In this document: piece after piece, positions 2-64,000 of the stretch
Layout: each line of letters opens with the position of its first letter
Numbering within the stretch: position 1 is the stretch's first letter
From: Flavobacterium eburneipallidum
GTDB taxonomy: Bacteria; Bacteroidota; Bacteroidia; Flavobacteriales; Flavobacteriaceae
Direction: 5' to 3'
DNA: 64,000 bases
NCBI RefSeq assembly: GCF_027111355.2
Contig: NZ_CP114291.2
Location: forward strand, 620,001-684,000
Notes under the pieces: generated by a model
Database searches by the model: none
Seen by the model: the letters and a program-made list of their open reading frames with translations, nothing else
What the model was told of the DNA's origin: nothing
Program-made: the position numbers and the translations under genes

Positions 2-1252
2 CATACTGTAGCTCCAACAAATGCTACTTGTGGTAGAGCCTGGAGAAATATTTTTCAGGAAATTGGTACGGCTAATGCTGTTTTAGAAAGTTTGCAGGCA
101 TCGCCAAATAGTGCCAATTTAAAAGGATTAATTGCTGAGGTAAGAGCCTTACGTGCCTACGGTTATTTCTATGCAATGGATTTTTGGGGTAATGTGCCTT
201 TGGTTACTGTAGCCAGAATTGATCCTAATAATTTGCCAAAGAATACGCCAAGAAAAGACGTATTTGCTTTTATAGAAACAGAAATGCTAGCCGCCATTCA
301 AGATTTACCTTCTATAACTACAGTTAATAAAACCAGTTATTATCCAAGGTTTACCAAAGAAGCTATTTATGGTGTTTTGGCAACTATGTATTTGAACGCT
401 CAAGTTTATACAGGAACGCCTAAATGGACAGAAGCTATTGCAATGTGTGATAAAATTATTGCTACAAATAAATATTCGTTGGAAGCCACTGTTGTAGATA
501 ATTTTAAATCCACCAACGAGCAAAATTCAAAAGAAATCATTTCTTCTTTCTCCATTGCACCAGCACAAAATGCAGGGAATAATCAGTTCATTTTATACAC
601 TCAAAACGGATTGGATAAATTAAAATACAATTTGCCTTTTACACCAGCCAATGGATACAGTACGTATCAAGAAGCTTTAGATCGCTACGAAAATCAGGAT
701 GTTCGTAAATCATTAATCGAATACGGACCTCAATTTTATTTAGATGGTGTTACGCCTTTACGCTATCCAAATGGAACACAATTGAATATTGTTGCTGTAA
801 AAAGTTTAATCAGTGCTGAAGATAATGAAGGCTATAAGGTCTTGAAATATACTCCAATTGGAACTTCTTGGTCTGGTTTTAATGCCGATAATGATTTGGT
901 TTTAATGCGTTATGCTGACATTTTATTAATCAAAGCGGAAGCACTATTTAGAGGTGGAACTACTACAATTCCAGATACTGCATTAGGTTTAGTAAATCAA
1001 GTAAGAGGCAGAAGTAATGCTTCGGTTTTAGCCAGTTTGACTTTAAAAAACATCGAAGACGAAAGAGCCAGAGAATTAATCTGGGAAGGACACCGCAGAA
1101 GAGATATGATTCGTTTTGGAACTTATTTTAATGGAACTTGGGCATTCAAAACCACCCAAACAGAAGCTTTTAGAGCCATATATCCTATTCCGCAAGAGCA
1201 ACGAACAGCGAATCCAAATTTGGAACAAAATCCAGGTTATCCGAATAATTAA
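2..1252 (+). CDS. SusD/RagB-family outer-membrane glycan-binding lipoprotein, 5' end cut by window
   Basis: C-terminal part (about 417 codons) of a SusD-like protein. The frame is open from base 2, so the signal peptide and lipobox lie outside the window. What is seen: the late SusD block LMRYADILLIKAEALF, then VNQVRGRSN, and the C-terminal ELIWEGHRRRDMIRFG followed by a short IYPIPQEQ tail, all typical of the family. SusD proteins sit on the cell surface and cover a SusC TonB-dependent transporter, handing it oligosaccharides. The SusC gene is expected upstream. The next four genes are pectin-active enzymes, so the likely ligand is a pectic oligosaccharide (inference). A terminator-like hairpin follows the stop codon. 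Confidence 0.93.
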   Translation, partial: HTVAPTNATCGRAWRNIFQEIGTANAVLESLQASPNSANLKGLIAEVRALRAYGYFYAMDFWGNVPLVTVARIDPNNLPKNTPRKDVFAFIETEMLAAIQDLPSITTVNKTSYYPRFTKEAIYGVLATMYLNAQVYTGTPKWTEAIAMCDKIIATNKYSLEATVVDNFKSTNEQNSKEIISSFSIAPAQNAGNNQFILYTQNGLDKLKYNLPFTPANGYSTYQEALDRYENQDVRKSLIEYGPQFYLDGVTPLRYPNGTQLNIVAVKSLISAEDNEGYKVLKYTPIGTSWSGFNADNDLVLMRYADILLIKAEALFRGGTTTIPDTALGLVNQVRGRSNASVLASLTLKNIEDERARELIWEGHRRRDMIRFGTYFNGTWAFKTTQTEAFRAIYPIPQEQRTANPNLEQNPGYPNN

Positions 1253-1273
1253 TTGTTTTTATAACGAATACTT

Positions 1274-1320
1274 ACCCATGCGTTTTTAGAATTTTCTATT
1301 TACGGATGGGTTTGTTTTTC
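1274..1320 (+). terminator. Probable intrinsic terminator after susD-like gene
   Basis: Imperfect stem ACCCATGCGT / ACGGATGGGT separated by 18 nt and followed by a T-rich run (TTTGTTTTTC). It lies between the SusD-like gene and the first esterase, so it may reduce readthrough rather than separate two independent units. Confidence 0.55.
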
Positions 1321-1344
1321 TTTAAATTTGATAAAATAATCTAA

Positions 1345-2325
1345 ATGAAAATTTCACTCTTTTTTTTATTGTATTTAGGATTTGTAGTTGGTATAAATGC
1401 ACAGTCTTACAAAGGGGTAACTGGAGTTAGAGATACGTCTTATTCAACTAAAAGCGCTTACAAATATGATGTGAAAAAACATCCATCGATTAAAATTGTT
1501 TCTGAATTTCAATTTCCTTCGGTTAAAGAAAAACGGAATATCGCCTATTGCGAAATCGGGAAACGAAAGTTGAATCTCGATGCTTTTTATAATACAAATA
1601 AAACAAATTCGAAACGAACAGCAATCATCATTATTCATGGTGGCGGCTGGCGTACCGGAAGTAGAGAGCAACATTATCCGATGGCACAAAAGTTGGCTAG
1701 TTTAGGTTATATTTGTTTCACACCAGAGTACCGACTCTCAACCGAGGCACTTTTTCCAGCTGCTATTTATGATCTAAAAGCAGTGATTCGTTGGGTTCGA
1801 CAAAATGCAGAAGCTTATAATTTTGATCCAAATAAAATTGCTGTTTTAGGCTTTTCAGCTGGCGGCGAAATGGCTTCTTTTATGGGAACAACGGGAAATA
1901 TGCCTTTATTCGAAGGGACTTCTTGTAATTTAGATACAAAATCGAATGCCAATGCCGTGGTGGATATTGACGGAACTTTATCTTTTGTCCATCCCGATGG
2001 TCGTGAAGGAGATGATAGCAAAGGAATTTCGGCAGGAACCTATTGGTTTGGTTATTCGAAAGCCGAAAATCCAAAATTATGGGAAGCTGCTTCGCCTTTG
2101 AGTTATGTAAGTGCTCAAACGCCACCAACACTTTTTATCAATAGCGCTGTGCCATGGATGCATGCGGGAAGGGAAGATTATATTAAGGTTTTGGATAAAA
2201 ACGGAATCTATTCGGAAGTCAAAGAATTTGAAGGCGCACCGCATTCTTTTTGTTTGTACGAGCCTTGGTTTAGTCCAACAATTGAACACATAAATAATTT
2301 TTTGACTAAAGTTTTTAAACAATAA
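1345..2325 (+). CDS. Secreted alpha/beta-hydrolase carbohydrate esterase (first of two paralogs)
   Basis: 326 residues with an N-terminal signal peptide (hydrophobic to about residue 18, then NAQ). The alpha/beta-hydrolase landmarks are visible: oxyanion motif HGGGW at 98-102, nucleophile elbow G-F-S-A-G with Ser171, and a C-terminal catalytic His near residue 300 (GAPHSF). This arrangement matches the acetyl-esterase/BD-FAE-like enzymes found in polysaccharide loci. From the context (SusD, GH105, CE8) the likely job is removing acetyl or other ester groups from pectic oligosaccharides in the periplasm; the exact substrate is inferred. The next gene is a clear paralog 12 nt downstream, so the two are probably co-transcribed. 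Confidence 0.85.
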   Translation: MKISLFFLLYLGFVVGINAQSYKGVTGVRDTSYSTKSAYKYDVKKHPSIKIVSEFQFPSVKEKRNIAYCEIGKRKLNLDAFYNTNKTNSKRTAIIIIHGGGWRTGSREQHYPMAQKLASLGYICFTPEYRLSTEALFPAAIYDLKAVIRWVRQNAEAYNFDPNKIAVLGFSAGGEMASFMGTTGNMPLFEGTSCNLDTKSNANAVVDIDGTLSFVHPDGREGDDSKGISAGTYWFGYSKAENPKLWEAASPLSYVSAQTPPTLFINSAVPWMHAGREDYIKVLDKNGIYSEVKEFEGAPHSFCLYEPWFSPTIEHINNFLTKVFKQ

Positions 2326-2337
2326 AATTTCAATACT

Positions 2338-3342
2338 ATGAAGCAGTTTTTTCAAAATATATTTGGGTTGATTCTTTTTGTTTCTTTTTGTACTCAAGCA
2401 CAACAAAAGACAATTACCATTCCCAAAGACACTTCTTTTACTGTCAAAAATGAATACAAGAAATACCTGAAAAAGTATCCGCAAATCACTCCTGCAAAAG
2501 ATTCTTTACCTGAAAATGTAAAAGAGAACAGGAATCTGGTTTACACGACATTAAAAAATACTCCTTATGGAGACAGAGATTTGCATTTGGATGTTTTTTC
2601 GCCAAAGAAAAAAGGAAAATATCCAGCCTTAATCATGGTTCACGGTGGCGGATGGAGAGCAGGAGATAAAGCACTAGAGGTACCAATGGCTCAAAAACTG
2701 GCAGCCAAAGGAATTGTAACCATTTGTGTCGAATACCAATTGTTGCAGGAAGCGCAATATCCAGCAGCGGTTTTTAATATAAAATCAGCAGTACGATGGG
2801 TGCGTGCCAATGCAGATAAATACGGAATTGATTCCAACAAAATAGCCATTTCTGGAGATTCAGCAGGAGGACAATTGGCTTTGTTGGTCGGACTCACAAA
2901 CGGAGTTCAGTCCAAAGAAGGAAATCAGCGGAATTTAGGTTTTTCAAGCGACATTCAGGCGATTATAGATTTAGATGGAGTAGTCGATTTTATGGCACCA
3001 TTGTCCCTTAATCTAAAGCGAGGTCCCGATTCACCAGATGTACAATGGTTGGGAGGTACTTTCTATGAAAAGCCAGAAATTTGGAAAGATGCTTCTCCTA
3101 TTTTTTGGGCTAATGAAAAATCATGTCCTATTTTATTTGTCAATAGTGGTTTTCCAAGATTTCATGCCGGACAGGACGAATTAATAGGAATGATGAAAGA
3201 TTGGGGTATTTACACAGAAGTTCATAAATTTGACATCCAATTGCATACATTTTGGTTATTTGATCCTTGGATTGACTCTACCGTAAATAACATGAATAAT
3301 TTTTTAATTAAAGTGTTTGATAATCAGTTGGTAAAAAAATAA
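2338..3342 (+). CDS. Secreted alpha/beta-hydrolase carbohydrate esterase (second paralog)
   Basis: 334 residues, signal peptide ending near TQAQ (residue 22). Oxyanion motif HGGGW at 102-106, nucleophile G-D-S-A-G-G with Ser175, and probable catalytic His303 (QLHTFW). Much of the chain lines up with the upstream esterase: PMAQKLA, YPAAVFNIKSAVRWVR, the aspartate-rich DLDG block and the final NNFL-KVF. This indicates an old tandem duplication. It differs in the elbow (GDSAGG versus GFSAGGE) and in the central substrate-facing region, so the pair may deacylate different positions of the same glycan (inference). Confidence 0.85.
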   Translation: MKQFFQNIFGLILFVSFCTQAQQKTITIPKDTSFTVKNEYKKYLKKYPQITPAKDSLPENVKENRNLVYTTLKNTPYGDRDLHLDVFSPKKKGKYPALIMVHGGGWRAGDKALEVPMAQKLAAKGIVTICVEYQLLQEAQYPAAVFNIKSAVRWVRANADKYGIDSNKIAISGDSAGGQLALLVGLTNGVQSKEGNQRNLGFSSDIQAIIDLDGVVDFMAPLSLNLKRGPDSPDVQWLGGTFYEKPEIWKDASPIFWANEKSCPILFVNSGFPRFHAGQDELIGMMKDWGIYTEVHKFDIQLHTFWLFDPWIDSTVNNMNNFLIKVFDNQLVKK

Positions 3343-3364
3343 AAACAACATTTAAAATACAATT

Positions 3365-4612
3365 ATGATGTCACGAATTAAAATTACCCGAATTTCTTTG
3401 ATTTCTTTAATAGCTTTTAGTTTATCTCTTGTAGCTTGTAAAAATGGCTACAATGCAACTACAAACAAAGAATCAGCAGGGAAAATTGTTCCTGAAAATT
3501 TAAAATGGTCAGAGAGAATGGTGCTGTCAGAAATGCATCGTTTTCCTGAAGCAACAAAATTAGATTTTTCTCCAGTACCTCAATGGGGCTACACTAACGG
3601 ATTAGTTTTAGGTGCTTGTGCGAAGGTTTATGAAAAAACCAAAAACCAAAAATATTATGACTATATCTATGCTTATGCCGATCAGATGATTGAGAAAACA
3701 GGAGAAATAAAAAGATACAAATTAGCGGATCAAAATTTGGATATGATAAAATCAGGCGATGTTCTACTTTATTTGTACCCAAAAACAAAGGAAGAGCGTT
3801 TTTTAAAGGCGATGCAAACCTTAAACAGCCAGTTAGAATCGCAGCCTAAAACATCAGATGGTGGGTATTGGCATAAAAAAATATATCCTTTTCAAATGTG
3901 GTTGGATGGTTTGTATATGGCAGAACCATTTCATGCTCGTTATATAAGAGAATATGAAAAAGATGCTTCTAAAGCTGAAAAGGTTTATGATGATGTAGTG
4001 CTTCAATTTGATTTAATTCAAAAGCACAGTCAAGATCAAAAAACTGGATTATTATTTCATGGTTGGGACGAGAGCAAAGAACAAAGTTGGGCTAACAAGC
4101 AAACTGGAAATTCACAGCATTTCTGGTCCAGAGGAATGGGTTGGTACGGAATGGCATTGGTAGATGTTTTAGATTTTTTACCTAAAAACCATCCAGGAAG
4201 AGAAAGACTGATTCAATATTTGAATGAATATGCAGAAGCTATTGTTAAGGTTCAGGATCAATCAGGATTATGGTGGCAGGTTTTAGATCAGGGAAACAGA
4301 CAAGGGAATTATTTAGAAGCCACAGGAACTGCTATGTTTGTTTATACATTGGCCAAAGCTGCTCATAAAGGTTATATTCCAAATAAGTATTTAAAAAATG
4401 CAAACCAAGGTTATGACGGACTCATTAAAAACCTAGTTACGGTTGAAGAAAATGGAGTGGTAAACTTAAATAAATGTTGTGCTGTAGCTGGTTTAGGTGG
4501 TAATCCATACAGAGATGGAACTTATGAATATTATATAGGTGAAAAAATCAGATCTAATGATCCTAAAGGAACTGGGCCTTTTATACTAGCCAGTTTAGAA
4601 TTAAATAAATAA
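3365..4612 (+). CDS. GH105 unsaturated rhamnogalacturonyl hydrolase, lipoprotein
   Basis: 415 residues with a lipoprotein signal peptide (LSLVAC, Cys25). The (alpha/alpha)6-barrel family motifs of YteR/YesR-type enzymes are visible: WGYTNG near 74-79, the catalytic-Asp block MWLDGLYMAEPF with Asp181, and HFWSRGMGWYGMAL later. GH105 enzymes hydrate and cleave the unsaturated galacturonyl residue left on oligosaccharides by pectate or rhamnogalacturonan lyases. Membrane-anchored in the periplasm, it would act on products imported through SusC/D. It lies between the esterase pair and the pectin methylesterase. Two adjacent ATG codons occur; the first is used here and the choice changes one residue. 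Confidence 0.92.
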   Translation: MMSRIKITRISLISLIAFSLSLVACKNGYNATTNKESAGKIVPENLKWSERMVLSEMHRFPEATKLDFSPVPQWGYTNGLVLGACAKVYEKTKNQKYYDYIYAYADQMIEKTGEIKRYKLADQNLDMIKSGDVLLYLYPKTKEERFLKAMQTLNSQLESQPKTSDGGYWHKKIYPFQMWLDGLYMAEPFHARYIREYEKDASKAEKVYDDVVLQFDLIQKHSQDQKTGLLFHGWDESKEQSWANKQTGNSQHFWSRGMGWYGMALVDVLDFLPKNHPGRERLIQYLNEYAEAIVKVQDQSGLWWQVLDQGNRQGNYLEATGTAMFVYTLAKAAHKGYIPNKYLKNANQGYDGLIKNLVTVEENGVVNLNKCCAVAGLGGNPYRDGTYEYYIGEKIRSNDPKGTGPFILASLELNK

Positions 4613-4619
4613 ACTATTA

Positions 4620-5606
4620 ATGAAAAACACGAACCAATTAAAATACCTTTTGTTTTTACTTTTGGTCACTCAATCTTTTTTTGCACAAACAGCTAACCCT
4701 GAAAAATACAAATACCAATTTGTGGTTGCCAAAGACGGTAGCGGCGATTATAAATACATTCAGGATGCGATAGATGCGATGCGAAAATTTCCGTTGGCAC
4801 CCATTACTTTGTATATCAAAAATGGAGTTTACAACGAAAAAATAGAATTGTCTGCTAATAATACCGATGTTGCTTTTATTGGCGAAAGCCTAGATAAAAC
4901 CATTATCACCTACAATGATTATTCGGGCAGAGGCAAAATGGGTACTTTCGATTCTTATACCGCCAAAATATCAGGAAATAGATTCAAGGCAGAGAATATT
5001 ACTTTCGAAAATTCCGCAGGGCGAGTAGGGCAGGCAGTGGCTTTGTATGTCGATGCTGATAAAGCCGTTTTTAAGAATTGTAAGTTTCTAGGCAATCAAG
5101 ATACTATATATTTGGGTGGCGAATATGCCAGACAGTTTTTTGTCGATTGTCATATCGAGGGAACTACGGATTTTATCTTTGGACCAGCAACAGCGGTTTT
5201 TAAAAACTGTACTATCTTGGCTAAAACCAATTCTTATATCACCGCTCCCAATACGCCAAAAGACAAAGAATTTGGTTTTGTTTTTATGGATTGCAAAGTG
5301 AATGTAACACCCGAAGTAGATAAGCTTTATCTGGGTCGTCCTTGGCGAGCGTGGGCAAAATCCGTGTTTATAAAATGCGAATTTCCCAAACAAATAGCAG
5401 TTGAAGGCTGGGACAATTGGGGAAATGTTGAGAATGAAAAAACCGCTTTTTTTGCAGAATACGAATGCAGCGGTGAAGGTTTTAAACCAAAAGAAAGAGC
5501 TTCTTGGACACATCAATTAAAAAAATCAGAATCCGAAAGATATACTTTGAAAACTATTTTAGGCAACAATTCAAAATCTTCTGAAAAAGAATGGTACGAA
5601 TTGTAG
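4620..5606 (+). CDS. Pectin methylesterase (carbohydrate esterase family 8)
   Basis: 328 residues, signal peptide ending near FFAQ (residue 23). The full CE8 signature set is visible: NGVYNEKI (GxYxE-type), GQAVAL with Gln138, NQDTIY with Gln160 and Asp161, GTTDFIFG with Asp184, and LGRPWRAW with Arg240 and Trp242. These supply the two catalytic aspartates, the oxyanion glutamines and the substrate-binding Arg/Trp of the right-handed beta-helix. It removes methyl esters from homogalacturonan, preparing it for lyases and GH105. It starts 7 nt after the GH105 stop, and a strong terminator follows, so this is the last gene of the pectin locus. Confidence 0.95.
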   Translation: MKNTNQLKYLLFLLLVTQSFFAQTANPEKYKYQFVVAKDGSGDYKYIQDAIDAMRKFPLAPITLYIKNGVYNEKIELSANNTDVAFIGESLDKTIITYNDYSGRGKMGTFDSYTAKISGNRFKAENITFENSAGRVGQAVALYVDADKAVFKNCKFLGNQDTIYLGGEYARQFFVDCHIEGTTDFIFGPATAVFKNCTILAKTNSYITAPNTPKDKEFGFVFMDCKVNVTPEVDKLYLGRPWRAWAKSVFIKCEFPKQIAVEGWDNWGNVENEKTAFFAEYECSGEGFKPKERASWTHQLKKSESERYTLKTILGNNSKSSEKEWYEL

Positions 5607-5628
5607 TTTTCTAGGTTTATTTTAACGT

Positions 5629-5660
5629 AAAAGCCATATCCGTAAAGATGTGGCTTTTTT
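5629..5660 (+). terminator. Intrinsic terminator ending the pectin locus
   Basis: Stem AAAAGCCATATC / GATGTGGCTTTT with an 8-nt loop and a T6 run, 23 nt after the pectin methylesterase stop codon. Confidence 0.8.
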
Positions 5661-5683
5661 GATTGGTTTTGCTTGTTTGACTT

Positions 5684-5722
5684 AATGGGGACGAAGTCGG
5701 AGACATTCGCCCAGCACGACCC
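5684..5722 (-). repeat. Degenerate copy (minus orientation) of the GTGCTG..CGAAGTCTCCCGACTTCG palindromic repeat
   Basis: Read on the minus strand this segment matches the copy at 17412-17447 over roughly 35 bp with a few substitutions and one or two indels: CGTGCTG, then CGAA, TCTCC, GACTTCGT, CCCATT. The palindromic core here is interrupted (ACGAAGTCGG AGAC ATTCGC), so this looks like a decayed member of a dispersed repeat family. Confidence 0.55.
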
Positions 5723-5771
5723 TGTATTTTAAGGTCCTTTGTTCTTTAAGAATATTTCGTGTAGATGGGTT

Positions 5772-6497
5772 TTATTCCCAATCTAGTGCTTCAGAAAAAT
5801 AAACATTTTCAGCACTCGAAGTATTATAATTCCATAAATCTAACTGTTGAGATAAACTATTAACACTGAACCCATTTGAGTTATGAGTGGCGTTTATAAT
5901 ATTAGTCATTAAGCTATTTCCTAAATTATTTTTACTAAATATTGCATTTAATTTTTGATAGTTAAATTTAAAAAAAGTCAGTGTATAATTCATTAATTCA
6001 GAATTTGTATCGTTAAATTCATTTACACGCAACCATTTATTGTTTTTGTTTATCATTAAGATAAATCCATAAGGTTTTTTTGTTGACATCGAATTATGAA
6101 AACTGTATTTTATATATTTATAATTTTCGTTTTTATAAGTGAAATTTATTACTTGAGCCAGTTGAAAGTAATTTAGATTCTTATCCAAAGCATTTTTTTG
6201 ATTCAAATCTTGAGTTGCATCTGCATCTAATTCACTTATTGGAGTATTGTTATTTAAGTTTATCCAAGCGAGAGAGTTTTCAGATAAAATAGAATTAATC
6301 AATAGTTCAGGACTATTGTTAGTTACTCCACTTATTGAACTTATTGTTCCTTTAACAATAATGTTATCAGGATACAACCCATAACTTAAATTTGTAATAT
6401 TAGGATCTGTACTATTTAAGTTTATCATTACTTGCGCATAACTAAAAAAGTTGATACTAAAGAATATACTTAAAATTATTAATTGTATTTTTTTCAT
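5772..6497 (-). CDS. Hypothetical secreted protein
   Basis: 241 residues with a clear N-terminal signal peptide (MKKIQLIILSIFFSINFFSYAQ). No catalytic motif or known fold was recognised. The mature chain is rich in Asn, Ser and aromatic residues, as is common for surface or periplasmic proteins of AT-rich Bacteroidota. It is the last of three minus-strand genes (7350 to 5772), separated from the 189-residue membrane protein by 45 nt. The cluster lies between the pectin locus and a MITE-like element and appears to be accessory DNA. Function unknown. Confidence 0.7.
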   Translation of the reverse strand: MKKIQLIILSIFFSINFFSYAQVMINLNSTDPNITNLSYGLYPDNIIVKGTISSISGVTNNSPELLINSILSENSLAWINLNNNTPISELDADATQDLNQKNALDKNLNYFQLAQVINFTYKNENYKYIKYSFHNSMSTKKPYGFILMINKNNKWLRVNEFNDTNSELMNYTLTFFKFNYQKLNAIFSKNNLGNSLMTNIINATHNSNGFSVNSLSQQLDLWNYNTSSAENVYFSEALDWE

Positions 6498-54208: not shown

Positions 54209-56233
54209 TTGAAACCCTATTATTATATAGCTGTTCTACTGATTGTTTTTTTTGCATGTACAAAAAATAATTCAGTAAATAAAATGTCTTCCTCTTCGGA
54301 AGATAGTTTGTCTATATATATGACAAAGGCTAATGATTTTAGTTCAAATACCAAAAAAAGAAAAGAATATACAGAAAAATCGTTTGATATTGTAATGAAT
54401 CAATCAGATGATTCGTTACAAAGAGCTAATTTGTTTCGAATCGCCAATAGGTATTACAATTTGAATGATTGGACAAATTATCGAAAAATTGCATTAATTG
54501 TTTTAGAAAAAGCAGAGGCTAATAGTGATACATTGAGTAAAGCTAAAGCTTATTCTTATTTGGGGGATTATTATGGTTCCCAAAGAATATCTGATAGTGC
54601 CTTTTTGTATTATTATAAAGCTGAAAAACTATACTCTCAACTTGGTGATAATTATGATCTTGCTACAACAAGATTGAATAAAGCTTTACTACAATATAAT
54701 GAAAGTGATTTTTCAGGTAGTGAAAATTCAGTTTTTAAAGCTTTAAGGGTTGTTAAAGGAAAGCAATTTTATGATATTGAATATGAATCTTATAATCTTT
54801 TAGGGTCAATTTATAGTGAACTAGGAGAGCATGATAAATCATTAGAATATCATACTAAAGCATCAAATAGTGAGTATAGTAAAACATCTCCAGTAGAATT
54901 TCAATCTAGAGCTACTTCTTTAAATAATGTAGGTTTTGTTTATCAAAATTTGAATCAACATAAAAAGGCTATACCCTATTTTGAAGAAGGACTCAAACAA
55001 AAGAAAGATTTAATTCTGTATAAAATATCATTATATGCGATGTTGTTGGATAATTTAGGTTATTCTAGACTAAAAATTAAAGAAGACAAAGGTTTGCCTG
55101 AACTGTTTTATGAATCTCTAAAGATTAAAGACAGTTTGCAATTAACGTCAAGTATGATTACCACAAAGATTCATTTATCTGAATATTTTGCTTATAAAAA
55201 AGATACAGTAAGAGCTACGCATTATTCAAAAGAAGCTTTGGCTACAGCTCGGAAGTCAAGGAATTCAAGAAATATATTGTTGCTTCTAAAACAATTAGCT
55301 TTGATAGAGCCAAATAAAGCCGCCATTTACAACAAAGAATACATTCGTCTTAACGACAGTTTGCAAAAAGCAGATCGGAATATTGCTGAAAAATTCTCTC
55401 GCATAGAATATGAAACCGATGAGATCAAACAAGAAAATACAGACTTAACAGCCAAAAACAGGAATTTAGTTTATATTTTTGGCTCTGTTTTGATACTTGG
55501 TATGTTTATGTATATCATCAAAGCGCAAAAATCCAAAAATAGAGAATTATTATTCAAGCAAGAACAACAAAAAGCCAACGAGGAAATTTATAACTTAATG
55601 ATTTCTCAACAAATTGATGTTGAGTCAATTAGGGTTAAAGAGAAAAAGCGTGTTGCACAAGAATTGCATGATGGTGTCCTCGGAAGAATGTTTGGTGTGA
55701 GAATGAATCTGGATAGTTTGAATAAAATAAACGACGAAAGTGCTTCTGTTCAGAGAAATAGTTATTTAACAGAATTAAAAAATATAGAACAAGATATTCG
55801 TGAAATTTCACATGATTTGAATAGGGAAAAATCAGAATTAATTAATAACTTCGTTGCTATCGTAGAAAATTTGTTTGAAGATCAAAAAAAGACCTTTCCT
55901 GTTAAATTGATTTCCAGTATTGATTCTACTATAAAATGGGACAAAATAAGCAATGCTACTAAGATTAATTTGTACAGAATTATTCAAGAATCGCTACAGA
56001 ATTGTAACAAATATGCCAAAGCCAAGAACGTTAAAATAGAATTCAAAAAAGGGGTTGAAGACAACATACTTTTAGAGATAAGTGATGACGGAATTGGGTT
56101 TAATTTAAACAAAGGAAAGAAAGGAATTGGCATACAAAATATGATTTCTAGAATCAAAGAATGCCAAGGAACATTTGACATAAAATCAAAAAAAGGAGAA
56201 GGAACCTCAATTGTGGTTTCTGTCCCAACCTAA
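54209..56233 (+). CDS. TPR-domain lipoprotein sensor histidine kinase (HisKA_3), TTG start
   Basis: 674 residues from a TTG start; there is no ATG upstream in frame. Lipoprotein signal with Cys17 (VFFAC). An extracytoplasmic TPR-like solenoid about 60-380 (KAYSYLGDYYGSQRISDSAFLYYYKAEKLY; NNVGFVYQNLNQHKKAIPYFEEGLK), one TM helix about 419-437, then HisKA_3 with phosphoacceptor His487 (RVAQELHDGVLG) and a HATPase domain (NLYRIIQESLQNCNKYAKAKN, DDGIGF, GIGIQNMISRIKE). It senses a periplasmic protein or peptide (inference). Its regulator gene follows 12 nt downstream. Confidence 0.93.
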   Translation: MKPYYYIAVLLIVFFACTKNNSVNKMSSSSEDSLSIYMTKANDFSSNTKKRKEYTEKSFDIVMNQSDDSLQRANLFRIANRYYNLNDWTNYRKIALIVLEKAEANSDTLSKAKAYSYLGDYYGSQRISDSAFLYYYKAEKLYSQLGDNYDLATTRLNKALLQYNESDFSGSENSVFKALRVVKGKQFYDIEYESYNLLGSIYSELGEHDKSLEYHTKASNSEYSKTSPVEFQSRATSLNNVGFVYQNLNQHKKAIPYFEEGLKQKKDLILYKISLYAMLLDNLGYSRLKIKEDKGLPELFYESLKIKDSLQLTSSMITTKIHLSEYFAYKKDTVRATHYSKEALATARKSRNSRNILLLLKQLALIEPNKAAIYNKEYIRLNDSLQKADRNIAEKFSRIEYETDEIKQENTDLTAKNRNLVYIFGSVLILGMFMYIIKAQKSKNRELLFKQEQQKANEEIYNLMISQQIDVESIRVKEKKRVAQELHDGVLGRMFGVRMNLDSLNKINDESASVQRNSYLTELKNIEQDIREISHDLNREKSELINNFVAIVENLFEDQKKTFPVKLISSIDSTIKWDKISNATKINLYRIIQESLQNCNKYAKAKNVKIEFKKGVEDNILLEISDDGIGFNLNKGKKGIGIQNMISRIKECQGTFDIKSKKGEGTSIVVSVPT

Positions 56234-56245
56234 AAATAAGAAATA

Positions 56246-56938
56246 ATGAATGAGTCTATTGATACAGCATTAATTAAAAAAAACATATTAATTATTGATG
56301 ACCATCCCTTTATAATTGAAGGTTATAAAAACGGCATTACGAGGTATAAACCCACTCAATATGAGTATTCTATCTCGCAAGCTGTGGATTGTAAATCTGG
56401 CTATGAACTTATTACTAATCCCAATACAGTGGCTTTTGATATCGCTTTTTTAGATATAAGTATGCCAACTTATGAAGAAAAAGGACTCCGATCAGGCGAA
56501 GATTTGGCTAGATTATTGAAAGAATACATGCCCAATTGCCAAATTATTTTACTCACAATGTACACCGAAGAGTTAAAAATAAAAAATATCATTGACACTA
56601 TAAATCCTAGTGGATTAGTAATAAAAAATGATCTAACATTTGAAGAACTTCTTTTTGGATTTGATAAAGTAATCAATAATGAAATTTATTACAGTCAATC
56701 CATTCAAAAAATGCTAGATTTAGCACAGCAGGAAACCATAGAAATTGATGTTTTCGATAAGCAGATTCTTTTTCATATATCCAAAGGAACCAGAACGATA
56801 GATATTCCGCAATATGTACCCATATCGCTCGAGGCTATCGAGAAAAGAAAACTAAACCTAAAAAAAATATTAAACGTACATGATCAAACGGATACTGAAT
56901 TAGTACGAGAAGCTAAAAATAAAGGCTTACTTTTTTAA
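56246..56938 (+). CDS. Response regulator with degenerate LuxR-like output domain
   Basis: 230 residues. Receiver with Asp18/Asp19 (IIDDHPF), phosphoacceptor Asp70 (IAFLDISMP) and Lys in VIKNDL. The C-terminal third (VFDKQILFHISKGTRTIDIPQYVPISLEAIEKRKLNLKKIL) has the spacing of a LuxR-type HTH, but many of the usual conserved residues are replaced. Cognate to the TPR kinase immediately upstream. Target promoters are unknown. Confidence 0.9.
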   Translation: MNESIDTALIKKNILIIDDHPFIIEGYKNGITRYKPTQYEYSISQAVDCKSGYELITNPNTVAFDIAFLDISMPTYEEKGLRSGEDLARLLKEYMPNCQIILLTMYTEELKIKNIIDTINPSGLVIKNDLTFEELLFGFDKVINNEIYYSQSIQKMLDLAQQETIEIDVFDKQILFHISKGTRTIDIPQYVPISLEAIEKRKLNLKKILNVHDQTDTELVREAKNKGLLF

Positions 56939-59204: not shown

Positions 59205-59235
59205 AAACGTCAATCGAGAGATTGGCGTTTTTTTT
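59205..59235 (+). terminator. Terminator of the prolyl oligopeptidase gene
   Basis: AAACGTCAATC GAGA GATTGGCGTTT followed by a T run. Confidence 0.85.
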
Positions 59236-59260: not shown

Positions 59261-59285
59261 GACAATTGTAAGCAGGTCAATTGTC
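59261..59285. promoter_or_regulatory. Candidate operator (C-box) of the XRE-Dcm operon
   Basis: GACAATTG (59261-59268) and CAATTGTC (59278-59285): perfect 8-bp inverted arms around 9 nt, 24 nt before the XRE start codon. Each arm contains the palindrome CAATTG. Position and symmetry match controller-protein operators of restriction-modification systems. Confidence 0.6.
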
Positions 59286-59309
59286 CGCACAAAACTACAT
59301 TTATAGGTT

Positions 59310-59525
59310 ATGAATCTGAAAGAAAAATTTGGACATAAAATAAAATTCTTACGAGAACAAAAAGAATACTCCATTGAGTATTTGGCAAATATTGCCAACA
59401 TCGACAGAACTTACATTTCTGATATTGAAAAAGGTAAAAGAAATGTTTCACTACTAATTATTGAAAAACTTGCGAAAGCACTTGAAGTAACTATTCAAGA
59501 CTTATTCGATTATGAAAAATCTTAA
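59310..59525 (+). CDS. XRE-family regulator (controller-like protein)
   Basis: 71-residue single-domain HTH protein (FGHKIKFLREQKEYSIEYLANIANIDRTYISDIEKGKRNVSLLIIEKLAKAL). First gene of a tightly overlapping operon; its 3' end overlaps the methyltransferase start by 14 nt. By analogy with C proteins of restriction-modification systems it probably binds the inverted repeat just upstream and sets the order of expression. Confidence 0.9.
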   Translation: MNLKEKFGHKIKFLREQKEYSIEYLANIANIDRTYISDIEKGKRNVSLLIIEKLAKALEVTIQDLFDYEKS

Positions 59526-60738
59526 CTTTATTGATTTATTTGCTGGGGCATCTGGTATGTCTGAAGGCTTTATAAAGGCAGGATTTAATCCAATATCTCA
59601 TATTGAAATGAATCCTGAAGCGTGTCTAACCATAAAAACACGAGCAGCTTATCATTATTTGAAATCAAAAAAGAAGCTTGAATTATATTATCAATATATT
59701 AAAGGAGAAATAACACAAGAAGCTTTTTATAAAGAAATTCCAAATAAAATCCTTAATTCTGTTTTGAATGTTGAAATTAATGATGATACAATCACTGGTC
59801 TTTTCGAAAAAATAAAACAATCAGGAAAGCAAATAGATTTAATTATTGGCGGACCACCTTGTCAAGCTTATTCTTTATTAAGGAGGCATCAAGATAAAAT
59901 TGAAGAAGATCCAAGAAATAAATTATACATTCAATACGGAAGATTTCTTGAAGAATTTGAACCAAAAGCATTTGTGTTCGAAAATGTTCCTGGTTTATTG
60001 AGTGCTCACAAAGGGCAACATTTTGAAAATCTTAAAATTTATTTCAAAGAACTTGGTTATGAAGTATATCCAAAAACTTTAATTGCTTCTGATTTTGGAG
60101 TTTTACAAGCCCGTAAAAGAATTATTATTGTGGGTTGGAAAAAAGAAAATGATTTTGGATTTCCAGAATTTGAAAAGATAATCCAAGAATTCAAAGTTAA
60201 TGATGCTTTTCAAGATTTGCCTAAATTAAAGCCTGGAGAAGGTTTTAAAACTACAAATTATACTCAAAGCAAAAATGAATATCTAGAGAAATTTGAATTG
60301 AGAAATGGTGTTGATTTTGTGACGCAACATATTTCAAGACCACACAATACAAGAGATTTGGCTATTTATAAAACAGCTATTGAACTTTGGAATAAAGGAA
60401 AAGAACGATTGAGATATCCAGATTTGCCCGAAGAATTAAAAACACACAAAAATGTAACCTCTTTCAATGACCGATACAAAGTAGTTGATGGACTTGGAAT
60501 ATCACATACTGTTGTAGCCCACATTGCCAAAGATGGTCATTATTATATTCATCCCGATGTAAAACAATGTCGCTCTATATCTGTTCGCGAAGCAGCAAGA
60601 TTACAATCCTTTCCAGATGATTTCTTTTTTGAAGGATCACGTTCAGCAGCATTTAAACAAATAGGTAATGCAGTTCCACCATTAATGGCTAATGCAATTG
60701 CTAAAAAAATGAAAGAATTATTATGTCAGAAATCTTAA
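59512..60738 (+). CDS. DNA (cytosine-5-)-methyltransferase
   Basis: 408 residues. C5-methyltransferase motifs: I NFIDLFAGASGMSEGF (5-20), IV GGPPCQAYSLL with catalytic Cys117, VI FENVPGL (156-162), VIII QARKRIIIVGW (199-209), IX RSISVREAARLQSFPD, X GNAVPPLMANAIAKKM. The target-recognition region lies between about 210 and 355. It overlaps the XRE gene by 14 nt and the next gene by 16 nt. It likely protects host DNA from, or marks it for, the downstream system; target sequence unknown. Confidence 0.96.
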   Translation: MKNLNFIDLFAGASGMSEGFIKAGFNPISHIEMNPEACLTIKTRAAYHYLKSKKKLELYYQYIKGEITQEAFYKEIPNKILNSVLNVEINDDTITGLFEKIKQSGKQIDLIIGGPPCQAYSLLRRHQDKIEEDPRNKLYIQYGRFLEEFEPKAFVFENVPGLLSAHKGQHFENLKIYFKELGYEVYPKTLIASDFGVLQARKRIIIVGWKKENDFGFPEFEKIIQEFKVNDAFQDLPKLKPGEGFKTTNYTQSKNEYLEKFELRNGVDFVTQHISRPHNTRDLAIYKTAIELWNKGKERLRYPDLPEELKTHKNVTSFNDRYKVVDGLGISHTVVAHIAKDGHYYIHPDVKQCRSISVREAARLQSFPDDFFFEGSRSAAFKQIGNAVPPLMANAIAKKMKELLCQKS

Positions 60739-62939
60739 AAGAAAAACATTTTAATCCAAAAGCACATATTTTAACTTTATTAGGAAATGAACTTATAAAG
60801 AGCCCAGTTATGGCTATTTATGAGCTTGTTAAAAACAGTTATGATGCTGATGCAAAAAAAGTTGATGTTAGGTTTAGAGATATAGAAAAATTAGACGAAG
60901 CAGTAATTATTATTGAAGATGACGGAATTGGAATGACTTCTGAAATAATTGAGGATGTTTGGTTAGAACCAGGCTCCGATTTTAGAAAACCAATTGATAA
61001 AATAACAGGGGAAAGACAAATTATCAAATCTCCCATATTTGAAAGAGTTCCAATGGGTGAAAAAGGAGTTGGAAGATTTGCTGTTCACAAATTAAGCAGT
61101 CAAATTTTACTTATTACAAGACCAACTTTAATAAAGTTTAAACCCAATTCAAGAGAAATAGAAAGTACTGAATTAGCAAATTACGAAATTCAACTTTATA
61201 TTGATTGGAAAGATTTTAATCAATCGAAACACTTGTCTGATGTTCCTATTAAATGGAAAATCAAAAGTGATCTTGAAAGTTTTAGATTCAAGGAAAAAGG
61301 AGGTACATATATTCGTTTAAGTGGGTTAAAGGAGACTTGGACAAAAGGAATGGCAAGAGATTTAAAAGGTCAAACACTCTCTATGTTATCACCTAAAGTA
61401 AGAGAAGTTGATTTTAAAATCAACTTAAACTTTAATAATCAATGGCTTGTTGATTTTCCATCAGTTGAAAAAATTTTAAACGAAGCTCCATTCAATATGA
61501 CAGCTTTGATAGATAAAGATTATAATTTAGATTTTGAATATGGGTTTTCTCTTAAAAATAATAATAATATTGGACAAAGAATTATAAAGAATAATCCAGA
61601 TTTTAATAAAAACATAAGAGGTTTAGTAAAGAAAGAGTTGATTAAAGTTTTAGAAAAAAAGGAACTTGAACAAGATAAAATAGATGAAGTTTTAAAAGAT
61701 TTTGACAATAAACCATTGCCATTCGGGGATTTAATTATTGAATTATATACTTTCGATTTAGACTCTTATTCAATGAGGGATTATACTGCTGATGCTGATC
61801 TTGTTAAAAAAGTTTTAAAAGAACATTCTGGAATAAAAGTTTTCAAAAATGATTTAAGAATTTACGACTATGGTAGTCCAAGTAATGATTGGCTAGGTTT
61901 GGATTTAGAGAGAATTCAAAACAAAATGTGGTTCTCAAATAACAATAGTATTGGATATGTTTTTTTAGATGCTGAAACTTCAAATAGTTTGACTGAAAAA
62001 ACAAATAGAGAAGGATTTGTTGAAAACGAAGCATATTTAAGCTTTTATATGGTTTTAAAAGCAATTTTACGTGAATTTGCTGCAACTAGGTTTTCTGATA
62101 GAACAAAATGGTTAAAACTTAATCAAAAATCTTCTTCTAATTTATTTGATTCTAAAGTAAGTGCGTTTAAAACTCTTTTAGAATCTTCCGATCTAGATAA
62201 TGAAGAAAAGAAAAAGAAATTACTTGAAGAAGCTGAAAAGTTAGAAGAAAAATATGAGGAAGATAAAAAAATATTATTAATTCCAGCAGGTGTTGGGATG
62301 ACCGCGTCTGTAGCTTTACACGAAATCGAAAAGCTTGTTCCTCGAATGGAGGAAACTATAAAATCTGAACCATTCAAAAAAGATATTATTACAGAACAAG
62401 TTGATGAGTTAAGACAATATACAGATGGAATTATATCAGTTTTAAGGAAAGGTGGAGATAAACCAATTGATATTAAAGAATCAATAAATAGAGCTTTTAA
62501 TAATTATAAATTGAAATTATTAAACAGGAATATTACTACCATAATAGAAATTGATGATAATGTTACGTTGATGAATTGTGATAAAAGATTTTTTATTACA
62601 ATGCTTATGAATATTATTGATAACAGTATTTATTGGTTAGAAACGGTTTATAAAGAAGAAAAAATAATTTTTCTAAAATGCTCGAAGATTAATGATATAG
62701 TTACAATTATTATTGCAGATAATGGCCCTGGATTTAAAGATGATATTTCGGAATTAATTCGCCCATTTTTCACAAGAAAATCAGATGGAATTGGAATTGG
62801 AATGTATTTGATTGATACTATTATGATGAAATATGGAAAATTGGATATAATTACAGGTGGAAATGAATTTTTAGAATTAGGAATTCCTGAAAAGTTTGAT
62901 GGAGCAATTGTGAAATTAGTATTTAATAAGAATCAATAA
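60723..62939 (+). CDS. Dual-ATPase protein: N-terminal Hsp90/MORC-like GHKL domain plus C-terminal histidine-kinase core
   Basis: 738 residues, two separate GHKL ATPase signatures. N-terminal domain: E34LVKNSYDADAKK (N38), EDDGIGM (65-71), GEKGVGRFA (112-120), the set seen in MutL/Hsp90/MORC proteins, followed by a middle region to about 480. A coiled coil (about 490-516) leads to a HK core: candidate phosphoacceptor His533 (VALHEIEKL), N box NIIDNSIYWL (630-639), G1 DNGPG (666-670), F box PFFTRK, G2 DGIGIG (688-693). No TM segment, so cytoplasmic. Start overlaps dcm by 16 nt. Inference: a nucleotide-driven sensor kinase that signals to the receiver protein encoded next. Confidence 0.88.
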   Translation: MSEILKEKHFNPKAHILTLLGNELIKSPVMAIYELVKNSYDADAKKVDVRFRDIEKLDEAVIIIEDDGIGMTSEIIEDVWLEPGSDFRKPIDKITGERQIIKSPIFERVPMGEKGVGRFAVHKLSSQILLITRPTLIKFKPNSREIESTELANYEIQLYIDWKDFNQSKHLSDVPIKWKIKSDLESFRFKEKGGTYIRLSGLKETWTKGMARDLKGQTLSMLSPKVREVDFKINLNFNNQWLVDFPSVEKILNEAPFNMTALIDKDYNLDFEYGFSLKNNNNIGQRIIKNNPDFNKNIRGLVKKELIKVLEKKELEQDKIDEVLKDFDNKPLPFGDLIIELYTFDLDSYSMRDYTADADLVKKVLKEHSGIKVFKNDLRIYDYGSPSNDWLGLDLERIQNKMWFSNNNSIGYVFLDAETSNSLTEKTNREGFVENEAYLSFYMVLKAILREFAATRFSDRTKWLKLNQKSSSNLFDSKVSAFKTLLESSDLDNEEKKKKLLEEAEKLEEKYEEDKKILLIPAGVGMTASVALHEIEKLVPRMEETIKSEPFKKDIITEQVDELRQYTDGIISVLRKGGDKPIDIKESINRAFNNYKLKLLNRNITTIIEIDDNVTLMNCDKRFFITMLMNIIDNSIYWLETVYKEEKIIFLKCSKINDIVTIIIADNGPGFKDDISELIRPFFTRKSDGIGIGMYLIDTIMMKYGKLDIITGGNEFLELGIPEKFDGAIVKLVFNKNQ

Positions 62940-62942
62940 GAT

Positions 62943-64000
62943 ATGAAATTTTTAGAACCTAACATTGTTGTAGTTGATGATAAAATTGACGAGATTCAAG
63001 GAATAATTAAACATTTTAATGATTTAGGATTAGGTTGTAAATATTTCAATTCTGATTTAATTGAAGGAGATAATCATCCGGAAAAAGAATATTCAGATGT
63101 AAATCTCTTTTTCTTGGATTTGTTTTATTCTGACAATCCATTTGATGCGGAATTATGTGCAAATTGGGTTCAAGCTGTTATTCCTGAAAAATCATTTTAT
63201 ATATTAATCCTCTGGACAAAAGATGTTGCAAAAGCAACTGAAGTTTTAGAACAATTAAAAAAAGTAAACAGAAATCCTTTTATTTGCCTAATAGAAAGTA
63301 AAATTGATTATACTATTCAAAGTGACGAAAAATATGATTTTACTAAACTTTTTGAAAATATAAACAGTGAATTAGACAAAGTATCTGGGTTGTCAGAAAT
63401 TCAACTTTGGAAAAAAAATATTAAATTTTCGTATAATAAAATTATTGGTAATTTGACAAAAACTACAGATTCAAAAGCTTTTAATAATAAATTAAAAAAA
63501 ATTATTATTAGTCACGGAGGAACTGCAATAAAATCTGAAGTAGATAGTAAACGCAAACGGTCAATTTTATTTGATGCTCTAGATAGTGTTCTAGTTTCAA
63601 ATAGAAGCGATTTTCAAGAAGAAATAAGTGAAATTAACAATCAAAATTTATATAACTTAAATGAAATTGTAGAGCCAATTATAGATAAAGAATTAAATAG
63701 CTGGTTTCATTTCAAAATTGATAAAAAAGATTTAAAAGGAAAAATTTTACCAGGTCTAATTGCCTACAATAATCATAGTTTATTTAGAAAATTATATTCT
63801 ATTCAAGACGACCCTAAACTTGAAAAAATATTATTAAAACAAAAAGAAGAAAATGTTATAATTCAAGATGTTGTTTTAGTACTATCAAGACCTTGTGATA
63901 TTGCTCAAAATAAATTTGGAAAAAACATCAAATTATTAAGTGGTGTAATTCTTAAAAAAGCATTTCGCAATCAAAAAGGAAAAATTCATTTTAATGAAAC
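62943..64000 (+). CDS. Receiver-domain-like protein of the Dcm/GHKL operon, 3' end cut by window
   Basis: Open frame of 352 codons to the window edge; the stop lies outside. It starts 3 nt after the preceding stop. Residues 1-125 fit a response-regulator receiver: Asp12-Asp13 (VVVDDKID), phosphoacceptor Asp59 (NLFFLDLFY), Thr92 (ILWTKD), Lys120 (CLIESK). The remaining part is helical and charged and later contains a VLVLSRPCDIAQNKFG block with a Cys-Asp pair, of no family I recognise. No DNA-binding domain is seen in the visible part. Inference: partner and possibly effector of the upstream kinase. Confidence 0.8.
   Translation, partial: MKFLEPNIVVVDDKIDEIQGIIKHFNDLGLGCKYFNSDLIEGDNHPEKEYSDVNLFFLDLFYSDNPFDAELCANWVQAVIPEKSFYILILWTKDVAKATEVLEQLKKVNRNPFICLIESKIDYTIQSDEKYDFTKLFENINSELDKVSGLSEIQLWKKNIKFSYNKIIGNLTKTTDSKAFNNKLKKIIISHGGTAIKSEVDSKRKRSILFDALDSVLVSNRSDFQEEISEINNQNLYNLNEIVEPIIDKELNSWFHFKIDKKDLKGKILPGLIAYNNHSLFRKLYSIQDDPKLEKILLKQKEENVIIQDVVLVLSRPCDIAQNKFGKNIKLLSGVILKKAFRNQKGKIHFNE

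Follow-up and report, generated by a model that had tools for sequence, protein, structure and literature searches.

A candidate methylation-gated two-component restriction cassette in Flavobacterium eburneipallidum

Introduction

What does a histidine kinase with its receiver do in an operon where, beside a C5-cytosine DNA methyltransferase, a restriction enzyme normally stands? The question is raised by four genes at the end of the window, by which is meant the whole analysed stretch of 64,000 nucleotides (nt) of Flavobacterium eburneipallidum (contig NZ_CP114291.2; G000:C1:620001-684000 of a one-contig genome of 3.85 Mb). They encode an XRE/Cro-type controller, a C5 methyltransferase, a GHKL ATPase fused to a histidine-kinase core and a receiver protein. 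The explanation favoured here, at very nearly an even chance, is that they constitute a complete restriction-like cassette with the two-component pair in the position of the restriction enzyme, functioning through the relay proposed below. The sequences are best read as encoding a putative immune system of two-component type that is gated by methylation: the kinase would sense unmodified sites of the methyltransferase and the receiver would execute the response. At sequence level, the gene order, the methyltransferase and ATPase domains and the near-invariance of the phosphorelay residues are read directly from the genes.

Organization of the cassette

The four genes lie on the plus strand and span about 4.9 kb. 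The first encodes the controller (59310-59525; 71 amino acids (aa)), which matches HTH_3 (5.2e-15) and, with PADLOC Control_protein (5.6e-22), has the C-protein type feature of type II restriction-modification (R-M) systems. It is followed by the methyltransferase (59512-60738; 408 aa; PF00145, 2.5e-66; PADLOC DrmMII, 8.6e-169), whose translation harbors the sequences PPCQ and ENV, which we take to be methyltransferase motifs, by the kinase (60723-62939; 738 aa), and by the receiver protein (425 aa), which starts at 62943, reaches the last window position at 64000 and ends 220 bp beyond the edge (G000:C1:682943-684220). The controller and methyltransferase genes overlap by 14 nt and the methyltransferase and kinase genes by 16 nt, and a gap of 3 nt separates kinase from receiver, exactly as given in the initial annotation, which had also placed the genes behind a palindrome. 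The latter is a perfect inverted repeat with 8-nt arms, GACAATTG-N9-CAATTGTC (59261-59285), which occurs nowhere else in the window (chance expectation 0.03) and is a putative operator of the XRE controller. An identical repeat was not found 5' of ten XRE genes of relatives; at locus L065, an XRE-upstream repeat also has 8-nt arms and a core similar to that of the window repeat.

The kinase carries an N-terminal GHKL domain (HATPase_c_3; residues 29-133; 60807-61121; PF13589, 2.6e-13), a putative phospho-acceptor His533 in the DHp helix (62319-62321) and a C-terminal kinase catalytic domain (HATPase_c; residues 620-709; 62580-62849; PF02518, 8.9e-16). In the receiver protein, the receiver domain (approximately 62943-63347) contains the putative phospho-acceptor Asp59 (63117-63119), and a C-terminal output domain with a CD-x-A-Q-x-K motif extends from 63681 past the window edge at 64000 to the equivalent of 64214 (profile A5; G000:C1:683681-684214, 4.6e-38). 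The whole receiver protein has no convincing family match in Pfam, PADLOC or NCBIfam. From the letters alone, the initial annotation had proposed the controller, the methyltransferase, a receiver-like partner and a MutL/MORC-type GHKL ATPase joined to a full histidine-kinase core. All are supported by these matches and by the residues described below, the ATPase being MutL/paraMORC-like and its kinase core intact.

Apart from the ATPase part of the kinase, no restriction endonuclease was recognised in the four proteins with Pfam, PADLOC or NCBIfam. The expectation of a nuclease downstream was not supported: by eye, the open reading frames (ORFs) of the next 13.8 kb include no restriction nuclease and appear housekeeping-like, being AsmA-like, ketoacyl synthase, bioA/D/F-like and others. 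Because the receiver ends 220 bp past the edge, housekeeping-like genes follow and no restriction enzyme is seen, the four-gene cassette looks complete. Operons without a recognised restriction nuclease recur among relatives (16 of 57 evaluable, a Vsr repair endonuclease being encoded in 6 of these), so that the housekeeping flank, which the initial annotation had named as a refutation, argues for a complete four-gene unit and not against the idea of a defence operon.

Conservation of the kinase–receiver pair

When species genomes were searched with a profile of the kinase, at least 591 stretches were recovered, at least 506 of which encode relatives. The best 80 loci were kept, and the survey of these covers the nearest part of a larger family. 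The kinase ORF was called in 79 of them (L088 was left out). A receiver lies directly 3' of the kinase in 77 of the 79 loci, the other two ending at a contig edge; 59 of these receivers were recognised by the receiver profile, and 18 by position, mutual similarity and conserved residues. A C5 methyltransferase is found within five genes in 70 of the 79 loci, often together with restriction genes, and adjacent in 50. The coupling of a methyltransferase to a GHKL ATPase, put forward at the outset as an R-M theme, is supported by these counts, and homologues also occur in contigs of a viral collection. Of 16 loci of that collection, some nearly identical, 15 have a methyltransferase no more than two genes away, in some cases encoded on the other strand, and in 14 a receiver with the output domain follows the kinase.

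The relatives include Bacteroidota, Acinetobacter, Bradyrhizobium, Paenibacillus, Chlorobiaceae, Leucobacter and others. The kinase is uncommon in samples of genomes: at E<=1e-30 it was detected in 14 of 395 genomes of a phylum sample, and at E<=1e-60 in 6 of 395 (class sample) and 6 of 397 (family sample), own genome included. In known phages the kinase was found in two short unannotated records, and no receiver match was obtained. A more divergent trio of methyltransferase, receiver and kinase occurs on a Campylobacter jejuni conjugative plasmid (L132), with the methyltransferase convergent to the pair.

The residues required of a two-component system, namely the phospho-His, the ATP-binding residues and the receiver Asp/Asp/Lys, are conserved across the aligned relatives. 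In the alignment of 80 kinases (79 relatives and the window), His533 is present in all 80 and Glu534 in 79; the N-terminal GHKL site (N38, D66, G68, G70, G117) and the C-terminal ATP site (N630, D666, G668, G670, G689) are each kept in 80 of 80. K426, within a KTNREG motif, is present in 79 and may correspond to the conserved Lys of the S5 domain that follows GHKL in paraMORC ATPases. In the 77 related receivers, the phospho-acceptor Asp and the first acidic residue are invariant, the second Asp is kept in 70 and the Lys in 76. The pattern indicates that the phosphorelay is under constraint, and such near-invariance argues against a decorative role of either the kinase or the receiver half. 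The kinases of L021 and L076 have weak, sub-cut-off N-terminal matches to Ig-like domains (Big_9/cadherin), possibly other sensor domains.

Receiver output and its exchange for an MBL-fold protein

The output domain, of about 180 aa, is present in 63 of the 77 receivers and absent from 14; in the 63 long receivers the Cys of its motif is invariant and the Asp is kept in 61. In exactly the same 14 loci that lack it, a gene for a metallo-beta-lactamase (MBL)-fold protein of 318-361 aa lies directly 3' of the short receiver, and clustering of same-strand neighbours placed such a gene in none of the 63 long-receiver loci (Fisher p 1e-15, kinship uncorrected). The HxHxDH motif is intact in all 14 MBL proteins. 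The one of them that was scanned with Pfam, from L024, matches Lactamase_B (5e-07), and with PADLOC it matches PDC-M48B, RTasMBL, LmuA and Avs1a; the second protein submitted to PADLOC, from L013, matches PDC-M48B only. By profile similarity, one of the two tested MBL partners, that of L024, resembles Avs1/Lamassu effector models. The MBL-fold partners may act as nucleases in these loci.

The change between short and long receivers occurs three times on the kinase tree and once on the receiver-domain tree (36 rows), where the short receivers form one clade (99/99). Since a single receiver clade corresponds to three changes among the kinases, the receiver–MBL unit seems to have been swapped as a module onto different kinases.

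A search of 395 genomes detected the output domain in 13. In ten of these it has a kinase hit beside it, and in two it belongs to receivers of 632-637 aa beside a kinase; the thirteenth hit, weak and with stops, was discounted. Two loci (L126, L127) with kinases of about 790 aa and receivers of 632-637 aa that weakly match the output-domain profile are possibly a further branch. None of 76 receivers has a match in NCBIfam, and Pfam and PADLOC give only scattered weak single or double matches.

EcoRII-N kinases and the type of methyltransferase

Among the relatives, the sensor domain of the kinase tends to follow the type of methyltransferase. An N-terminal EcoRII-N domain is present in 12 of the 79 kinases, called by Pfam in the five that were scanned (1.5e-19 to 1e-10) and in the remainder through the alignment and a profile built from the twelve; it is also precomputed for 10 of 120 kinase homologues listed. 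Eleven of the twelve are near a Dcm/M.EcoRII-type methyltransferase (42-52% identical to Dcm). Relatives of one EcoRII-N kinase, P0239, were not found in viral contigs.

Six new non-duplicate loci (L166, L167, L169-L172; L165, L168 and L173 repeat earlier loci) were added. Among them, both a Dcm-type methyltransferase and EcoRII-N (4.1e-18) occur only in L167, which was located after the pairing idea had been recorded and which lies in a distant kinase clade, its neighbours L049, L052 and L057 having neither feature. L172 has no methyltransferase nearby. Three of the six (L166, L167, L170) are also without a recognised restriction nuclease. At L170 (G850:C11), a methyltransferase–kinase–receiver–Vsr operon is immediately preceded, at positions 2-5882 of the other strand, by genes that by eye resemble a type I restriction system with its specificity, modification and restriction subunits.

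The kinase tree contains 47 sequences: that of the window, 41 from the surveyed set of 79 and five from the six loci added later; long branches were flagged for the L089 and L170 kinases and for several methyltransferases. L027 and L029, with no methyltransferase, were left out of the pairing test. On this tree of selected loci, a Dcm/M.EcoRII-type methyltransferase accompanies 12 of 13 EcoRII-N kinases versus 2 of 32 others (Fisher p 4e-8, kinship uncorrected). In five phylogenetically independent contrasts, on average 4.7 pointed in the same direction, and 8 of 200 pairings had one opposite. The EcoRII-N domain of R.EcoRII binds the recognition site of that enzyme, and EcoRII-N kinases therefore probably read the methyltransferase's own site.

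The window methyltransferase is of another kind. Its best solved relative is M.HaeIII, and among the recognition regions that were cut out for 56 of 67 methyltransferases, its own is 83% identical to that of the L082 enzyme, which adjoins an EcoO109I-type enzyme. EcoO109I recognises RGGNCCY. CCWGG, which had come from the DrmMII label and the EcoRII-type relatives, was rejected as the main guess because the window methyltransferase is only distantly similar to Dcm (28% over 225 residues) and resembles the L082 enzyme in its recognition region; a RGGNCCY-like target is the better guess, taken from this one neighbour.

Proposed mechanism and rival explanations

The proposed model is as follows. 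The methyltransferase would mark the host genome at a short site, and the GHKL half of the kinase would clamp DNA. On meeting unmodified sites, such as those of phage or plasmid DNA, the kinase would be activated and autophosphorylate on His533; in relatives with a Dcm/M.EcoRII-type methyltransferase, the added EcoRII-N domain would read the site. The phosphate would then pass to Asp59 of the receiver, whose output domain, or the separate MBL-fold nuclease-like protein in relatives, would have DNA or the infected cell as its target. Expression would be timed by the XRE protein so that methylation comes first. Stated for the family, this would be a two-component restriction system in which a C5 methyltransferase writes the self mark, a DNA-binding kinase reads the same site when unmethylated and a phosphorylated receiver with an exchangeable effector executes, phosphotransfer replacing direct cleavage; this general form is put forward tentatively, at somewhat less than an even chance. 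Of the initial interpretation, the controller, the C5 methyltransferase, the GHKL-kinase, the receiver and the phosphorelay residues are supported, and the expected downstream nuclease is not.

Several observations weigh against this model. Many relatives are near ordinary restriction enzymes (EcoRII-C, EcoO109I, HaeII, HNH and Mrr/AspBHI types), with which a role of the pair in regulating R-M fits equally well. The output domain matches nothing solved or curated, so that its output could be transcriptional or regulatory. The window kinase has no EcoRII-N, and reading of the site there is by analogy only. The pairing itself has exceptions: at L014, L015, L019 and L020 the methyltransferase counted sits three to five genes away, L048 combines an EcoRII-N kinase with a window-type and not a Dcm-type methyltransferase, and L063 and L070 have Dcm-type methyltransferases without EcoRII-N. 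The sign test on the contrasts has a median p of 0.0625, ranging to 0.375, and five pairs cannot reach 0.05. As a separate observation, a 50-aa piece like the start of AspBHI-type enzymes was observed 3' of the receiver at L011 (11518-11670), perhaps a decayed restriction gene.

The strongest rival, although unlikely, is that the pair is a regulator or checkpoint of R-M, which would sense when methylation of the host chromosome is lost or out of balance and would adjust the expression or activity of restriction enzymes, whether linked or not. Transcription is the usual target of response regulators, control of timing is already implied by the XRE controller, and a conventional restriction enzyme adjoins the trio in many loci. 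The window genome also has five further C5-methyltransferase frames elsewhere, at four places, two of them side by side at 3.71 Mb. The regulatory role is favoured in the part of PMC8011034 that is available. It has against it the recurrence of operons without a recognised restriction nuclease, the lack of any helix-turn-helix family in the set of nine Pfam families that were hit across 76 receivers (E<=0.01), and the exchange of the output domain for an MBL protein that, in one of the two tested, is of an immune-effector type.

It has also been considered, as a decidedly improbable alternative, that the methyltransferase is a lone host mark in an orphan epigenetic module, the pair controlling unrelated genes and the linkage reflecting hitch-hiking in defence islands. 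The housekeeping-like flanks of the window and the 9 of 79 loci without a methyltransferase within five genes, some of them cut by contig ends, would agree with it, but the tight gene overlaps, the linkage to methyltransferases in many lineages and on both strands, and the correlation of the sensor domain with the methyltransferase type do not. Finally, it is very improbable that the GHKL protein is an ATP-dependent restriction enzyme like BbrUII/HgiDII in its own right, with a kinase-like half that is only structural. Its N-terminus does match the BbrUII/HgiDII family model (1.2e-17, residues 17-215), and PADLOC REase_II is matched as well (1.7e-06), but the family-model score of 63.7 bits falls short of the cut-off of 550 and the match is confined to the ATPase part, and a structural role would not need a kinase His and ATP-binding residues kept in 80 of 80 and a receiver Asp kept in 77 of 77.

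Relation to known systems

Kinase–receiver pairs beside C5 methyltransferases are already published. The available portion of PMC8011034 (Bellieny-Rabelo et al. 2021) describes paired kinase and receiver-like domains (HEF_HK, PF19191; Response_reg_2, PF19192) with C5 methyltransferases and R-M genes, proposes a regulatory link and reports 91.6% linkage in 644 regions. As far as described there, the pairs share with the window a kinase made of HATPase_c_3, H-box and HATPase_c, an adjacent receiver-like protein and a C5 methyltransferase upstream, and with the window branch Vsr, HNH_2 and EcoRII-C in the neighbourhood. Assignment of the window pair to this family was rejected on the Pfam models. 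PF19192 matches neither the window receiver (E<=10) nor its genomic place, its sole hit in the genome being elsewhere (E 0.17), and 76 related receivers were all without a hit at E<=0.01; the two 632-637 aa receivers of L101 and L102, recovered with the output-domain profile, fail as well. PF19191 has no match in the genome at E<=10 and is not among the Pfam matches of the kinase at E<=1. Because both models fail, the window pair is at least a divergent sister of Response_reg_2/HEF_HK, and the ortholog groups of that study, in the portion available, may include the window branch. That portion makes no mention of the EcoRII-N fusion, of the matching to methyltransferase type or of the receiver-output/MBL swap. 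Within the open-licence PMC literature, no paper on EcoRII-N with GHKL was found, nor, by title, an experimental study of the methyltransferase–kinase–receiver trio, and neither the EcoRII-N/Dcm-type pairing nor the receiver-output/MBL swap was found in print.

The paraMORC GHKL ATPases, as presented in the accessible sections of PMC2292703 (Iyer, Abhiman and Aravind 2008), are found beside C5 methyltransferases and Vsr nucleases and have a proposed DNA-looping role. Common to them and the window is the N-terminal GHKL ATPase beside a C5 methyltransferase; those sections describe nuclease or helicase partners and, unlike the window, no kinase core or receiver partner. EcoRII-N is fused to the kinase in the relatives, whereas in R.EcoRII it is fused to the EcoRII-C nuclease. 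In comparison with type II R-M systems, the cassette has the methyltransferase and a C-protein controller, but a linked restriction endonuclease was not recognised. The DISARM model DrmMII matches the window methyltransferase over its full length, the kinase, receiver and XRE protein having no Drm match in PADLOC; no helicase-like ORF was seen downstream by eye, without a profile scan. Phosphorelay is used as immune signalling by Detocs, whose relay comprises three genes and a receiver that bears the effector and which to our knowledge has no methyltransferase; PADLOC, whose coverage of Detocs was not checked, gave no Detocs match for the kinase or receiver.

According to the available text of PMC12799240, a protease activates the MBL-fold nuclease effectors of AVAST, Lamassu, DRT and Hachiman. 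There, the MBL gene stands beside a sensor module, as in 14 of the 77 relatives and not in the window; its partner in the relatives is a receiver, in contrast to the protease gating of those systems. No protease was noticed in the cassettes, and no profile search for one was made. PorX, in the accessible part of PMC12839542, is a response regulator with a PglZ phosphodiesterase output, hence enzymatic and non-DNA-binding, with no methyltransferase link stated in that part. The window output domain was not identified as PglZ, and it has no match in solved structures.

Genomic surroundings

The upstream neighbour of the cassette is a prolyl-oligopeptidase-like gene, named by eye as were the downstream genes. 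Between the two, a consensus scan detected a terminator-like hairpin with a T-run on the plus strand (59205-59230; 1205-1230 of L002), which is weak evidence, two such elements being found in the region versus 1.4 expected. Further 5' of the oligopeptidase-like gene, a histidine-kinase-like protein and a receiver-type regulator (54209-56938) are by eye an apparently ordinary two-component pair. On the other side, a search of 16 genomes matched the AsmA gene in nine, counting the window's own. In six relatives the match is nearly full length, and in none of these six did the upstream neighbour of the window cassette appear within 1.5 kb of the AsmA gene. In one genome of the same genus (L164; G1113:C3, 4982-7765), another R-M system adjoins the AsmA orthologue, consisting of an XRE protein (64% identical to that of the window over 67 residues), a Dcm-type methyltransferase and an MvaI/BcnI-family enzyme. 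The AsmA neighbourhood may be an insertion site for R-M systems.

Implications

If the model is correct, site methylation would be coupled to a phosphorelay, giving an inducible and possibly abortive form of restriction with swappable sensors and effectors, and whether one short DNA site is methylated or not should determine the activity of the kinase. It would provide a function for the published, unexplained Response_reg_2/HEF_HK-like pairs beside methyltransferases, and a kinase-gated route to MBL-fold immune nucleases, which the available text of PMC12799240 describes as protease-gated. Recognition of invading DNA by a kinase that watches for the missing mark would be unusual among bacteria.

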